Shown one piece after another: positions 24,269 through 35,381 of a stretch of 35,381 bases of DNA. The stretch covers positions 1 through 35,381 of the forward strand of contig JAFGHM010000027.1 of the NCBI GenBank assembly GCA_016930135.1, written 5' to 3'. Each line of letters opens with the position of its first letter. The first letter of the stretch is position 1. The notes under the pieces were generated by a model, which was not told the DNA's origin, made no database searches, and worked only from the letters and a program-made list of their open reading frames with translations. The stretch is from Thermoplasmatota archaeon (lineage in GTDB: Archaea > Thermoplasmatota > Thermoplasmata > UBA10834). The position numbers and the translations under genes were made by a program.

Positions 24269-27993
<3,725 letters not shown>

Positions 27994-28098
27994 GCCGACC
28001 TCCCGACTCCGCTCGAAATCAGGGACGAATCCAATATAGGTTTCCATGCGATGGGGTGTCGCGGAAGCACTTATGTTTCATCCACGGCTCTCACTGGC

Positions 28099-28759: not shown

Positions 28760-29803
28760 TCAGAACACCGGGGCCTTGGAGAAGTGGTCGTAGACTAGCC
28801 TGGCGATCTTCGCCTCTGCCAGCTGCGCTTTCTCGGGGCTCTTCTCGACGAGGTTCTTGAAGAAGACGCAGAGGACAACCCGGGACTTGGGGCTGACGTA
28901 TATGATGCCCGCGTTGTTGACCGTCCCTGCGGTTATGCCGGATTTGGAGGCCACGACGACATCGTCGGATAGATAGTGCGATGCCGAGGAATCCGACACG
29001 TTCCTCATCATCAGCGCGATTATCTGCGTGCCCGACTCGGAGGACACCGCCTCGCCATTCAACACCTTCTCGAGTATGAGGCCCATCTCCCTCGGGGTGC
29101 CCAGGTTGTCGAAGACCTGGTCGTACTCCCGCTGGGTCTTGAACTTCTTCTCCTCCTTGAGACCGTAGAGGTTCTCGTATCGCCGCCTGAACTCCTCGAC
29201 CGAGAGGTTCGCGTACTCGCGGTCTATCTCGTTGAGTATCTTCATGCGCTCTATGTCGCTCAGGCCCTTCCATATCCTCGCGGCCTCCTGGACGGACCTT
29301 CCCTTGAACGGGCCCATCCCCATCGTCAGCAGGAACCCCTCCCGCCAAGGGAGATAGATGGATGTCTTGGCGAGACCCAGTTCCCGGATCAGCATATTCA
29401 CCCTCTGGATGCCTATCCGCTTCCAGAGCATCTCCGAGGCCGTGTTGTCCGTGGCGATGATCATCAGGGTGAGGAGGTCCTTCACGGTCAGCTCGAGCCC
29501 GGGGCTGAGGTACTGAAGCACGCCCGAACCGATGCAGTAGTTGCGGCCCTCGAGTCTTAGCTTCTCGTCCATCGATATCAGGCCCTCCTCCGCCTGCCTG
29601 AAGACCTCGACCATGAGGGGTATCTTGAAAACGCTGCCGAGGGGGAATATCTTGTCACCGTCGATGGATATCTGCCTGCCGCTCTCCACATGCTTCATGT
29701 AGAGACCCATCTGGCCCTTGACATCCTTAGAGACCTTGATGATCTCGGCCCTCAGCTTAGCCATGCCTGGGTCCGTCGAAGTCTTCCCCTTCTCCGCCGT
29801 CAA
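28760..29803 (-). CDS. Class A beta-lactamase-fold serine hydrolase
   Basis: A 347-aa protein with the three active-site elements of penicillin-recognising serine hydrolases in the right order. SVFK (Ser57, Lys60) lies in PLGSVFKIPLMVEVF, TDN (118-120) replaces the usual SDN, and KSG (287-289) replaces KTG. The LTLMIIATDNTASEMLW segment is highly typical of class A (beta-lactamase2) proteins. About 70 residues of charged helical sequence (roughly 165-235) lie where the omega loop and following region fall. A standard Glu166 motif is not evident, so true beta-lactamase activity is doubtful. No signal peptide is seen, so it is probably cytosolic. The start is TTG 29803 with no clear ribosome site; ATG 29764 is an alternative. 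Peptidase or esterase activity is possible. Confidence 0.85.
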   Translation of the reverse strand: MTAEKGKTSTDPGMAKLRAEIIKVSKDVKGQMGLYMKHVESGRQISIDGDKIFPLGSVFKIPLMVEVFRQAEEGLISMDEKLRLEGRNYCIGSGVLQYLSPGLELTVKDLLTLMIIATDNTASEMLWKRIGIQRVNMLIRELGLAKTSIYLPWREGFLLTMGMGPFKGRSVQEAARIWKGLSDIERMKILNEIDREYANLSVEEFRRRYENLYGLKEEKKFKTQREYDQVFDNLGTPREMGLILEKVLNGEAVSSESGTQIIALMMRNVSDSSASHYLSDDVVVASKSGITAGTVNNAGIIYVSPKSRVVLCVFFKNLVEKSPEKAQLAEAKIARLVYDHFSKAPVF

Positions 29804-30016
29804 GTCTTAGACTCACTCTCCCAAGCGATGACGATTGCGCACTTGACCAGTGATACCAGGAGCACCGGCCCGGCTGCAACTGAACGCATCGGGATGATGG
29901 TATTTAGCGACTTCTATTCAACATCGTGCTCCCTCTGGGATCTGTCTGGGCTGCGCGTCTCACCAGCCGGAAAAGCCTTTAGGCATGTCCCGATTCCCCC
30001 AACGCCGAGGTGGGGT

Positions 30017-31483
30017 ATGTTGAGTTCCGCAGATTTCGAGAGGTTGAGCAATAGGAAGGTCGCGAGACAACTGGTCGACGGGGAGGCCTTCAAACGGATA
30101 CACGATGAGTCTATCGGAGTGCTCGAAGAGGTCGGGATCCGGATATACAGCCAGTCCGCCCTCGCTCTGCTCCGGGAACACGGGGCGAGCACCGACAACG
30201 ATAGGATGATCGCCAAACTCCCGAGGAACCTTGTCGAAAAGGCCCTCTCCACTGCCCCCAAAGGGTTGAGATTGCGTGCGAGGAACCCCAAGTTCGATCT
30301 TCTCCTGGACGGTTCGCACCTGTACTTCACATTCGATGGCTGTGGCGTCCAGACCATCGATATCGAGAGCGGCATGAGGAGGGCCGCTAGGAAGCAGGAC
30401 ATAGTCGACTGTGCGAGGCTGGCGAACGTCCTCCCCGGCGTTGGCTATTTCACACCCTCTGTTGCCCCCCAGGACGTGCCCCTCCACGCTCACGTGCTGC
30501 ACCAGATGGAGGCGGCCTATTCAAACACAGACAAGTTCGTGGTCTCGGAATCGACCACGACCGCGGCTGAGGCGAGGGCGCAGATAGAGATGGCGGCCGC
30601 GGTCGCCGGAGGAAGGGACGAGCTCAGAAGGAGTCCGACGCTATCAGCGATCATCTGCTCTGTGCCTCCCCTCAACCTGGATGGAGGGGGCAGCGAGGCA
30701 GCGATGGAGTTCGCCAGGGCGGGCGTGCCAGTGATCATGATGAGCATGGTCGAGGCCGGCGTATCCGGCCCCGTCACCCTCGCAGGAACCCTCGCTGTAA
30801 GCAACGCTGAGGTGCTCGCGATGCTGACCCTGATCCAGTGTGCCCGCAAAGGAGCGCCTGTGATATACGGCTCTGTGCTCTCCATGATGGAGCCCAGGAC
30901 AGGGGCGTACGTGTCGGGCTCGCCCGAGGCGGCGCTGCTCTGCTCTGCCGTGGTGGACCTCGGCAGGCACTACGGGATACCTACCCAGGCGGGCACCTTC
31001 GGGACCAACGCTGCGCTCCCCGGAAGCCAGGCTGCGACCGAGCACTGCCTGACCACGCTTCTCGCGGTGGGCGAAGGCGCGGAGATGGTCAACGGCTTCG
31101 GGCTCCTGGACGCCTCCACGGTGCTCTCATTCGAGCAGCTGCTGCTCGACTATGACATCGTCACTGAGATCCTGCATATGGCGAAGGGGATAGAGGTGAA
31201 CGAAGACACCCTAGCTCCAGGGCTTATCAGGGAGGTCGGGATAGGCGGGACATACCTTTCGAAGAGGCACACGCTCACGCACCTGAGGGAGGCCTGGCAG
31301 CCCATGGTCTTCGAGTACGGGAGCTATGACGAGTGGATGAGGAAGGGCGCAGTCGACCCCGTGAGACGCGCCAACGAGAAGGCGAAGGCCCTACTCGGGT
31401 CGGCCCCATCTGTCCCCCTGCCTACAGATACCAAGACGGCTCTCCAGCAGATCGTGGCCAGAGGCGAGAAGGAACTCAGATGA
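30017..31483 (+). CDS. MttB-family methyltransferase lacking pyrrolysine
   Basis: A 488-aa TIM-barrel protein of the trimethylamine methyltransferase (MttB) superfamily. Recognisable blocks are GVLEEVGIRIYS, TDKFVVSEST, a GPVTLAGTLAVSNAEVLA stretch, GSPEAALLCSAV, and TFGTNAALPGSQAATEH. In archaeal MttB a pyrrolysine (in-frame TAG) lies just before the GSPE block. Here that place reads SMMEPRTGAYVSGSPE (residues 289-304) with no amber codon. It therefore belongs to the non-pyrrolysine group, whose known members demethylate glycine betaine and other quaternary amines to a corrinoid protein. The substrate is unknown. The start ATG 30017 follows GAGGTGGGG; longer in-frame starts upstream are unsupported. 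No corrinoid gene adjoins it; the one at 34739 is 3.3 kb away on the other strand. Confidence 0.88.
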   Translation: MLSSADFERLSNRKVARQLVDGEAFKRIHDESIGVLEEVGIRIYSQSALALLREHGASTDNDRMIAKLPRNLVEKALSTAPKGLRLRARNPKFDLLLDGSHLYFTFDGCGVQTIDIESGMRRAARKQDIVDCARLANVLPGVGYFTPSVAPQDVPLHAHVLHQMEAAYSNTDKFVVSESTTTAAEARAQIEMAAAVAGGRDELRRSPTLSAIICSVPPLNLDGGGSEAAMEFARAGVPVIMMSMVEAGVSGPVTLAGTLAVSNAEVLAMLTLIQCARKGAPVIYGSVLSMMEPRTGAYVSGSPEAALLCSAVVDLGRHYGIPTQAGTFGTNAALPGSQAATEHCLTTLLAVGEGAEMVNGFGLLDASTVLSFEQLLLDYDIVTEILHMAKGIEVNEDTLAPGLIREVGIGGTYLSKRHTLTHLREAWQPMVFEYGSYDEWMRKGAVDPVRRANEKAKALLGSAPSVPLPTDTKTALQQIVARGEKELR

Positions 31484-32609: not shown

Positions 32610-33158
32610 CTATCTCGAGCCGGTGTCGAGAAGCCTGAGCACGCCCACATCCCCGACATTTATGAGCGAATCGTCGTGTTGCTCGCCCTCGGCCTTCGGG
32701 ACTATGGGCTCCATGCATCTCTCCATCAATGCCAGCTCCCTCTGAGTCATGGTTCTTGGGTCCACGGGGACCAGCAGTATGCTCTCGTTCGTGACGACGA
32801 CGTCCCTCAGCTGATGCATGAACTGGAGCATCCGGTCGTATGTGTTCAGCGATATCAGGTATTCGAGTCCGTCCACGACGACCACGGTTCGAGGGTTGCC
32901 CTCGATGAAGGAGCGCATCTGCCCCATCAGGATGCCGATGGCAGTGGGGTTGATCCTCGACTCCCCAACCAGGTTAGTGAGCCATAGGACCCTGCAGTTC
33001 CCCAGTTCCTCCTCGCCTAAGAGCTTCTTGGGGAAGTCGCGCGTGACCACCATGCCGGCGTAGCCAGAAGATAGAGCTTGGTCGAACATCTCGAAGGTCG
33101 TCCTTGGCCTTCGCTCTTCGACAAGGTAGACATTGCCAGGCTTGGCTTCAGGCACCAT
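32610..33158 (-). CDS. DUF835-family protein
   Basis: About 182 aa from ATG 33158. It matches what I know of DUF835: it opens PGNVYLVEERRP, continues GYAGMVVTRDFPKKL and CRVLWLTNLVGESRINPTAIGILMGQMRSFIEGN, and has a hydrophobic VVVVDGLEYLI strand and a C-terminal helix. The fold resembles P-loop RecA-like proteins that have lost Walker A. In archaea it is often attached to or near sensory and signalling proteins; function is unknown. The start could instead be GTG 33188 or the frame opening at 33266. A strong TATA box, ATTATATAAA (33228-33237), argues against 33266. AGATA/TATCT arms (33212-33216 and 33224-33228) next to the TATA box may be an operator. Confidence 0.75.
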   Translation of the reverse strand: MVPEAKPGNVYLVEERRPRTTFEMFDQALSSGYAGMVVTRDFPKKLLGEEELGNCRVLWLTNLVGESRINPTAIGILMGQMRSFIEGNPRTVVVVDGLEYLISLNTYDRMLQFMHQLRDVVVTNESILLVPVDPRTMTQRELALMERCMEPIVPKAEGEQHDDSLINVGDVGVLRLLDTGSR

Positions 33159-33227
33159 GGAGGAGCCTGAGCTGACAGCTGGACTCACTGCCGCATCCCA
33201 TCCGTGGTAACAGATATACTGGGTATC

Positions 33228-33237
33228 TTTATATAAT
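33228..33237 (-). promoter_or_regulatory. TATA box of the DUF835 gene
   Basis: ATTATATAAA on the minus strand is the strongest TATA match in the window. It predicts a transcript start near 33207. Confidence 0.6.
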
Positions 33238-33351
33238 ACTGTTGGACAGGATAGCAGATGGCGCAACTGACCATCGGGTAGGATCGACCCCAGACTGTTT
33301 TCTCGCTCTGAGTCAAAGTGCCGGTCGAGGAGACACCTCAGCTCCCGCCGA

Positions 33352-34734
33352 CTACTCCTCTTCCTTGACCCTCAGGCCCATGCCAGCCACCTCTTTCTTG
33401 TACCTCTTGATTATGCCCCGGTACTCCTTCGTTGGCTTCCTGGCATCGGCATCCCAGCACTCGTAGAGGCTCTTTCCAAGTGGAGGAGCGTCGAGCTTCG
33501 ACTCGTACTTGGCCAAGAGCTTCTTGACTAGCTCGTTCGCGTCCTTCCTCTTCATCCCCGCGACCGCGTGGCCCACCTCCGCGGATATCCTGGGCTCGAC
33601 AGGGGTCGTCCTATCCTCGTGCTTGTTTGTGGCCACACCCACGGACTCGATGGACAGGCCGGCGGTAACAGCTGCGGTCACCGCTGCGGTGGTCTCGTAG
33701 AGGCACATGGGGGTGCAAGGTCCGGCAGTCGTGTAGTTGAGGTTGAGGCTCAGTATGTGCGTGTTCCTGCTGATCGCCTGGCCCATTGAGCTGATGACCC
33801 AGAGCATATCTCTCGGGCTGCTCGCGACATACTTCAGATGTATTGTGAAGGGCAGCAGCCAGCTCGACTGATATGCCAGCAGGCCCATCATGTGGTGGGC
33901 GACGTTCGAGACCGCTGTTCCCTCCGGGCCACCGGAGTAGCCCCCCAGAAGTGGCCCGAAGCACATGCCTATGTGTCCGCCAAGGGAGAGGGCCACGGCT
34001 ACCTTGTTCAGTCTGGCGAAGTCCACCTTCATGGGATCCATGCAGCAGATCATGTAGGCGTCCGACTGCCTCATGCCGAACTTGGGATGCAGCGCGGCCG
34101 CAAAGGCGATGTCGCTCTCTGCAGTCGCCAGTGAGTTCATGATCGGGATGCCCTGGCGTCCGACCCTGTTGCACGCTTCCCTGGCGAGCACGGCGTTCCT
34201 CATGGCTGCAAGCACCTCAAGCGGGGATGCAGGCCTGACCCTCATGCCCCCGACCCTCGTGATGGCCGGAGTCGTGATCCCGTTCGTCTCCGGTATCTCT
34301 GCGTATCCCTCGACCAGCGTGAGGAAGGACCTGTCGCTCGAGCACGCTCCTCCACCCGCGCCGAGCAGGCACCACGGCGGTGTCTTGTCCTCCACCTTCC
34401 TCGGAACCATGGCCTTTCTGTCCCTTCCCTCGCCGAAGTAGAGCTTGGACGGGGCCCGCTTGACGGCCTCCATGACCTCCGACTCCGTGAAGGAGATGAC
34501 CCTTCCGCTGCTCGTGCAGAAGGCGCCGACATCGACCAGCAGCTCCAGACCCGCCTGGAAAAGGTCATCTGCGAGTGCATTGTCCTCCGGGATGGGGTGC
34601 TCCGGGTCGTACTTGATCCTGTACTCCCTGACCTTCTCCTGTATCTTGGGGGCGAACAGTCGCAGCTGGTAGTCGGTCTCGCTCATCGGCTTGCCGTTCA
34701 GGGCCTTCTCCATGACGTCTAGGATCTGGACCAT
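33352..34734 (-). CDS. MtmB (monomethylamine methyltransferase) homologue lacking pyrrolysine
   Basis: A 460-aa full-length homologue of MtmB (about 458 aa). Diagnostic blocks are DNALADDLFQAGLELLVDVG, GGYSGGPEGTAVSNVAHH, AGPCTPMCLYE (337-347), and the C-terminal LAKYESKLDAPPLGKSLYECWD. In methanogen MtmB an in-frame TAG encodes pyrrolysine near residue 202. Here the matching stretch (about 205-228, SDIAFAAALHPKFGMRQSDAYM) uses only sense codons. Without pyrrolysine the enzyme probably does not use methylamine in the known way; a different methylated substrate is likely (inference). The gene follows the corrinoid protein gene after 4 bp, with GGGTGA before the ATG, so the two form a methyltransferase/corrinoid operon. 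It ends in TAG. Confidence 0.88.
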   Translation of the reverse strand: MVQILDVMEKALNGKPMSETDYQLRLFAPKIQEKVREYRIKYDPEHPIPEDNALADDLFQAGLELLVDVGAFCTSSGRVISFTESEVMEAVKRAPSKLYFGEGRDRKAMVPRKVEDKTPPWCLLGAGGGACSSDRSFLTLVEGYAEIPETNGITTPAITRVGGMRVRPASPLEVLAAMRNAVLAREACNRVGRQGIPIMNSLATAESDIAFAAALHPKFGMRQSDAYMICCMDPMKVDFARLNKVAVALSLGGHIGMCFGPLLGGYSGGPEGTAVSNVAHHMMGLLAYQSSWLLPFTIHLKYVASSPRDMLWVISSMGQAISRNTHILSLNLNYTTAGPCTPMCLYETTAAVTAAVTAGLSIESVGVATNKHEDRTTPVEPRISAEVGHAVAGMKRKDANELVKKLLAKYESKLDAPPLGKSLYECWDADARKPTKEYRGIIKRYKKEVAGMGLRVKEEE

Positions 34735-34738
34735 CGGT

Positions 34739-35381
34739 TCACCCTGCCTTGGCGATCTTGCTGGCCAGCTTGACCGCCTCGAGGGCGTTCATCCCGCAGC
34801 CATCCGCTCCTATCTCCTTAGCCCACTCCTTGGTCGTCGGGCCTCCGCCCACGAGGACCGCGTGCTTCCTCCTGTCCCCGGAAGAGACCAGGTAGTCCAC
34901 TATGTCCTTCTGCGAGCCGATCGTACTCGACATCAGGGCGGATGCGCCTATTATCCTGGCTCCTGCCTTCTTGGCCTCCTCGACGAAGGTGATCGTCTTC
35001 ACGTCGACCCCCAGGTCCATGACGTTGAACCCGCCAGCCATCAGCATGCTCGAGACGATGTTCTTGCCGATCTCGTGCACATCACCCTGAACCGTGCCTA
35101 TGATGACGGTGGCCTTGGTCCCTTTCGAACCCTTGGGAATCAGAGGCAGCAGGAGGGCGAGGGCGGACTTCATGGCATCGGCTGCAAGCATCAGCTCTGG
35201 CAGGTAGATCTCCATCTTCTCGAACTTGTCCCCTATCTGCTCGATCGCAGGCACCAGTCCCTCCTCGATGGCGACGAGAGGTTCGACTTTCTCTGTTATC
35301 GCCGCCTTGGCCGCTTTCGTGGCAGCTCCAGAATCATATCCCAGAACGGCATTCTGCAAGTCCTTCAACACTTTTTCCTTA
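34739..35381 (-). CDS. Methyltransferase corrinoid protein (MtmC/MtbC-like), probably cut by the right edge
   Basis: At least 210 aa. An N-terminal helical cap domain (EQIGDKFEKMEIYLPELMLAADAM) is followed by a Rossmann B12-binding domain with D97-V-H99-E-I-G102. His99 supplies the lower axial ligand to cobalt. GVDV, IIGASALMSST and VLVGGGPTT continue the standard fold. It carries the methyl group from the MtmB-like enzyme to a second methyltransferase (such as MtbA) or to methyl-H4MPT, neither of which is in the window. A GTG at 35371 could be the start, but the frame is open to the edge (Lys-Glu-Lys before it), so the true start may lie outside. Confidence 0.93.
   Translation of the reverse strand, partial: KEKVLKDLQNAVLGYDSGAATKAAKAAITEKVEPLVAIEEGLVPAIEQIGDKFEKMEIYLPELMLAADAMKSALALLLPLIPKGSKGTKATVIIGTVQGDVHEIGKNIVSSMLMAGGFNVMDLGVDVKTITFVEEAKKAGARIIGASALMSSTIGSQKDIVDYLVSSGDRRKHAVLVGGGPTTKEWAKEIGADGCGMNALEAVKLASKIAKAG

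Follow-up and report, generated by a model that had tools for sequence, protein, structure and literature searches.

A pyrrolysine-free MtmB homologue adjoining a corrinoid protein gene in a nonmethanogenic order of Thermoplasmata: a predicted substrate:corrinoid methyltransferase

What does a protein of the MtmB family do when it lacks pyrrolysine (Pyl) and its host lacks methanogenesis? The question is raised by a 460-amino-acid reading frame (positions 33352..34734, reverse strand) near the end of a contig from a sediment-dwelling Thermoplasmatota archaeon, the whole analyzed stretch of which, 35,381 nucleotides, is referred to here as the window. An earlier note, made from the sequence alone, had described the protein as an end-to-end MtmB match of a little-explored non-Pyl kind and had proposed that it and an adjacent corrinoid protein form an active methyl transfer module with a new substrate. 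The protein belongs to a real, separate, non-Pyl clade of MtmB homologues that is under purifying selection. We consider that it is probably a Pyl-independent substrate:corrinoid methyltransferase, probably for a quaternary amine, that works with a dedicated corrinoid protein and feeds the Wood-Ljungdahl pathway.

The Pfam profile MtmB (PF05369) matched the protein with an E value of 1.2e-95 and 321 bits (cut-off, 25) over profile positions 1 to 450 of 450, and the AGPCTPMCLYE block falls at residues 337 to 347, bearing out the end-to-end match. No match to PF06253 (MTTB; MttB superfamily, COG5598) was obtained, PF05369 being the only match. The closest solved structures by sequence, and those of the sole solved relative found in this way, were of M. 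barkeri MtmB1 (1l2q and 1tv2; 217 bits, about 31% identity). An AlphaFold model (pLDDT, 89.7; pTM, 0.92) had 1l2q as its best PDB match, with a TM score of 0.94 and an rmsd of 1.5 Å, so the barrel that holds the active site is intact; MttB structures gave TM scores of about 0.55. Between congeners, dN/dS is 0.07 to 0.14, indicating purifying selection on the MtmB homologue.

What stands at the Pyl site was read from 50 aligned sequences, to which two further Bathyarchaeota copies were added. The region matching the amber codon reads RQGIPIMNSLATAE, and no in-frame TAG or read-through stop occurs in the 33352-34734 reading frame, in agreement with the description of this region as sense codons throughout. 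The column of Pyl202 of M. barkeri MtmB1 is occupied by Met199 (ATG, 34138..34140, reverse strand), which the AlphaFold model places in barrel strand 198-200. This replacement is common to all 35 archaeal non-Pyl relatives, while the six Chloroflexi relatives all have Val and ten copies that appear to be Methanomassiliicoccales-like have TAG. Glu259, Gln333, and Tyr335 of MtmB are what we take to be the Pyl-contacting residues, and one of the three is kept in the window protein: Cys258 (33961..33963) stands in the Glu259 column, Leu332 (33739..33741) in that of Gln333, and Tyr334 (33733..33735) in that of Tyr335, all three codons being on the reverse strand. The substituted active-site residues lie on barrel strands 198-200, 254-259, and 328-333 of the AlphaFold model.

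The Glu259 column also distinguishes two paralogue clades within the host order. Cys is found in 18 of 19 proteins of clade A, to which the window protein belongs, and related proteins, and Asp in 11 of 11 proteins of clade B; Glu is kept in the Chloroflexi and two Bathyarchaeota proteins. Given this difference, the substrates of the two clades could differ. The Gln333 column holds Leu or Ile in Thermoplasmata, and the Tyr335 column, Tyr or Phe in all aligned sequences, has Phe in two.

In a maximum-likelihood tree, 39 non-Pyl sequences were split from Pyl-MtmB by a branch with 100/100 support, with the joining of long branches among the outer groups being uncertain. PylD was not detected above the cut-off in this genome (85% complete) or in 16 related genomes, the best score being about 23 bits, whereas two Pyl-using relatives gave 207 to 216 bits. 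Among 100 genomes searched, counting this one, non-Pyl mtmB was found in 19 further members of the order, and the one member without it was 55% complete; Pyl-type copies with one TAG were found in six genomes, all from one other family of the class. Genomes of the order usually carry two mtmB homologues, and the second copy here is 66% identical to the first. More distant relatives occur in Bathyarchaeota (52 to 54% identity) and Chloroflexi (37 to 41%), the latter adjoining class III aminotransferase genes (L056:5857-7224, L056:8236-9618, and L054:9454-10788). No relatives were found in plasmid and viral contig collections.

Directly upstream of mtmB lies a gene for an MtbC/MtgC-like corrinoid protein, presumably its cognate partner (34739..35381, reverse strand). 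Only 4 bp separate its end from the start of mtmB, and its first few codons lie beyond the contig edge, which cuts off the N terminus; the reading frames of relatives (for example, at locus L106) begin a few codons further out, and complete copies are available from, for instance, G007 and RBG_13_57_23. Both Pfam domains, B12-binding and B12-binding_2, are present, as is the DxHxxG motif (D100-V-H-E-I-G105), and the scores for TIGR02370 (182 bits) and MtgC (202 bits) are both below the cut-offs. A corrinoid gene occupies this place in front of clade A mtmB in 16 species of the order, mostly across gaps of 4 to 8 bp. The pairing from which the earlier note had argued for an active module is thus a conserved one; the new substrate that it had attached to the module fares less well, as discussed below.

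The wider neighborhood links the pair to the MttB family. In genus g3 the order of genes is mttB-mttB-mtxC-mtmB, two mttB genes preceding the pair, and in genus g1, as in the window, an MttB homologue lies about 2 to 3 kb downstream of the pair on the other strand; MttB homologues downstream of the pair were found in genomes G006 and G007 and at two further loci of the genus. The window copy (29690..31483, forward strand), which is non-Pyl and 1 of 18 in the genome, matches Pfam MTTB with 332 bits from residue 118 on, and its true start is probably near 30014, a little upstream of the matched part. A DUF835 protein (32610..33266, reverse strand; Pfam DUF835, 102 bits) is encoded on the strand of the pair and directly downstream of it, an arrangement found at seven loci of the genus. 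Among the annotated neighbors of the pair there was no quaternary-amine transporter or choline gene.

Two other features of the window deserve mention in their own right. A protein resembling class A beta-lactamases and carrying SVFK and KSG motifs (28760-29803, reverse strand) occurs in this archaeal host with synteny conserved across the genus, and it scores below curated beta-lactamase cut-offs. Overlapping genes (24269-26272 and 26269-28047, reverse strand) encode LigA, an NAD-dependent DNA ligase of the bacterial type, and a polymerase of the PolX type; the host is an archaeon, and the gene order is the same in its relatives.

The genomes of the order indicate where a methyl group could go. 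McrA was absent from all 17 genomes of the order, which rules out methanogenesis as its fate, and MtrH, which in Bathyarchaeota is encoded beside mtmB, was absent from the order and is thereby excluded as the acceptor enzyme there. RACo activators are present in 17 of 17 genomes. One cluster in this genome encodes a fused CODH-ACS (1378 amino acids), CFeSP subunits, a RACo (AcsV-like, below the cut-off), and an AcsE-like methyltransferase, and a second pterin methyltransferase (NF005719, above the cut-off) is encoded in relatives beside an mttB-mttB-corrinoid cluster and an Opp-type transporter. In this genome, methyltransferases of the AcsE/MetH type lie on contigs C40 and C52. The order appears to be, or to be close to, “Ca. 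Gimiplasmatales,” with the published account of which (PMC11264602) the acs genes agree. In the nine genomes of the order examined for MttB homologues (1.5 to 2.1 Mb), 12 to 27 were found per genome; nearly all of these genes lack an internal stop, which makes for an unusually large set of non-Pyl MttB proteins.

The kind of protein to which the window homologue belongs is already known. MtqB of Methanococcoides methylutens Q3c, ACT9XH_RS04775, is a non-Pyl MtmB homologue that demethylates tetramethylammonium and choline (Kashyap et al. 2026; PMC13044021). The recombinant enzyme methylated cob(I)alamin from tetramethylammonium, choline, and monomethylamine at 37, 42, and 11 nmol/min/mg, respectively, and had no activity from TMA or glycine betaine; by the same account, sulfur-containing and aromatic residues abound in its pocket, where a Met and a Cys are conserved (PMC13044021). 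Because Met199, Met257, Cys258, and Tyr334 of the window protein fit that sulfur-plus-aromatic description, a known type of substrate is a simpler guess than the new one that had been proposed. The agreement is with the text description of the MtqB pocket and not with an alignment.

These observations are consistent with a three-component transfer from an amine to the MtmB-like enzyme, from there to its corrinoid partner, and on to a pterin. The barrel mouth, lined by Met199, Met257, Cys258, and Tyr334, would hold the methylated amine, which is most likely quaternary (choline or tetramethylammonium, for example), and the methyl group would be presented to the partner protein's Co(I) corrinoid. 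Pyl is believed to give simple methylamines a positive charge; it would not be needed here because a quaternary nitrogen already bears one. The methyl-corrinoid may then be demethylated by a pterin-binding methyltransferase of the AcsE/MetH type, an acceptor suggested by the lack of both McrA and MtrH, and the methyl group would enter the folate/CODH-ACS pathway, with activators of the RACo/AcsV type resetting Co(II) to Co(I). An independent pointer to a pterin acceptor comes from Bathyarchaeota, where a non-Pyl mtmB whose product has Met in place of Pyl either overlaps mtrH or lies immediately before it, and RACo is next to them (L080:51-2382 and L081:1444-3756).

The alternative that survives best keeps the same kind of active methyltransferase and changes the substrate, for instance to a methylated amino acid, to a secondary or tertiary amine bearing an N-methyl group, or to a methylthiol. 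We regard this as a lesser but real possibility. The Glu259 and Gln333 columns are both replaced, the MttB homologues of each genome examined may already fill the quaternary-amine niche, and for most non-Pyl MtmBs no function is known (PMC13044021). Set against this, the sole characterized non-Pyl MtmB uses tetramethylammonium and choline and the description of its pocket fits, and the g3 pair is clustered with MttB homologues, a family in which the characterized non-Pyl members use quaternary amines.

Paralogue clade B bears on two further readings. No corrinoid gene accompanied clade B mtmB among the family f1 copies having at least 700 bp of upstream DNA, and this, with the loss of Pyl and two of its contacts, would suit a protein that has kept its fold, lost catalysis, and taken on another role, such as the binding or scaffolding of corrinoid proteins. 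Such a history is quite improbable for the window protein: clade A keeps its adjoining corrinoid gene in 16 species, the genomes encode corrinoid activators as well as pterin methyltransferases, and MtqB shows that an enzyme of this family can lose Pyl and still catalyze.

In six species of two genera, the gene directly upstream of clade B mtmB encodes a dimethylargininase-like protein (L042:7161-7928 and L091-L097) that has bacterial DDAH enzymes as its best solved matches and retains the FVED, His, and Cys regions; the DDAH gene of the window genome is on another contig (C98; L105:7707-8600). The product of such an enzyme would be methylamines, which for clade B only would favor a mono- or dimethylamine methyltransferase that works without Pyl. 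The weak activity of MtqB on monomethylamine (11 nmol/min/mg; PMC13044021) also speaks for such an enzyme. For the window protein this reading is very unlikely, since its gene is not next to a dimethylargininase gene in the window and clade A has lost the Pyl contacts Glu259 and Gln333. Pyl, moreover, is considered essential for simple methylamines. A division of labor, with clade A acting on a quaternary amine and clade B on mono- or dimethylamine derived from methylated arginine, is an unlikely though conceivable outcome; if true, clade B would be a simple-methylamine methyltransferase needing no Pyl. Our literature search found no archaeal study that connects dimethylarginine with methylamine methyltransferases.

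The weakest reading is that a Pyl-MtmB was wrongly sequenced or assembled at its amber codon, or that a Pyl gene is decaying here. Nothing was found in its favor, and it has next to no chance: Met fills the Pyl column in all 35 archaeal relatives, which come from numerous independent assemblies, the clade is separated at 100/100, dN/dS is 0.07 to 0.14, and PylD is lacking. The relatives and dN/dS rule out an error or pseudogene at this site, and the separate clade and absent PylD rule out membership in Pyl-MtmB. Neither of the conditions that the earlier note had named as refuting it, a place inside Pyl-MtmB with an error at the amber site or a loss of the barrel active site, was borne out.

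We return to the preferred reading, a Pyl-independent methyltransferase for a quaternary amine. Pyl-free MtmB is a stable part of a nonmethanogenic archaeal order, mostly paired with a corrinoid protein, and a plausible route for its methyl groups runs via pterin methyltransferases rather than coenzyme M. Should the substrate be confirmed, the anaerobic use of quaternary amines would reach beyond methanogens and acetogenic bacteria. The natural variants described here, with Met at the Pyl site and Cys, Asp, or Glu at position 259, offer material for probing the role of Pyl. As to novelty, this is a genuine non-Pyl homologue, but the view that such proteins are little explored is not supported as it was put, given the precedent of MtqB, a tree in which 1,061 MtmB sequences, with and without Pyl, include many uncharacterized non-Pyl members (PMC13044021), and an earlier annotation of mtmB in nonmethanogenic Thermoplasmata (PMC11264602). 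New are the well-supported clade with its conserved pairing, the two paralogue clades with Cys or Asp at the Glu259 position, the mttB-mttB-mtxC-mtmB cluster, the Bathyarchaeota mtmB-mtrH pair, the candidates for the acceptor enzyme, and the position of a dimethylargininase gene ahead of clade B, which lacks a corrinoid gene.

Four known systems place the window pair. Like MtqB, its mtmB homologue is non-Pyl and has its own adjacent corrinoid gene; the upstream corrinoid gene of MtqB, MtqC, is annotated as dimethylamine type, and the average length of the family is 459 amino acids (PMC13044021). Unlike MtqB, which operates alongside MtbA and coenzyme M in a methanogen, the window protein comes from a genome without McrA, in which the likely acceptor is a pterin. 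With Pyl-MtmB (M. barkeri MtmB1; 1l2q, 1nth, and 1tv2) it shares the full-length fold, Tyr335, the AGPCT block, and a corrinoid partner, but it differs in sequence (about 31% identity), in the changes Pyl202 to Met, Glu259 to Cys, and Gln333 to Leu, and in the absence of Pyl biosynthesis from the genome. The non-Pyl MttB superfamily (MtgB, acting on glycine betaine, and relatives; 2qne and 9yce), with its non-Pyl barrel, quaternary-amine substrates, and own corrinoid proteins, offers a model of how the pair may work, although it is another family (no Pfam MTTB match, TM score of about 0.55, about 12% identity). Finally, in “Ca. Gimiplasmatales,” nonmethanogenic Thermoplasmata with acsA-E, mtmB, mttB, and mttC have been annotated and methylotrophic acetogenesis has been proposed, with the second methyltransferase reported as missing (PMC11264602). 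Our analysis found pterin methyltransferases that could fill this gap, the AcsE-like and NF005719 enzymes being candidates for the missing step.
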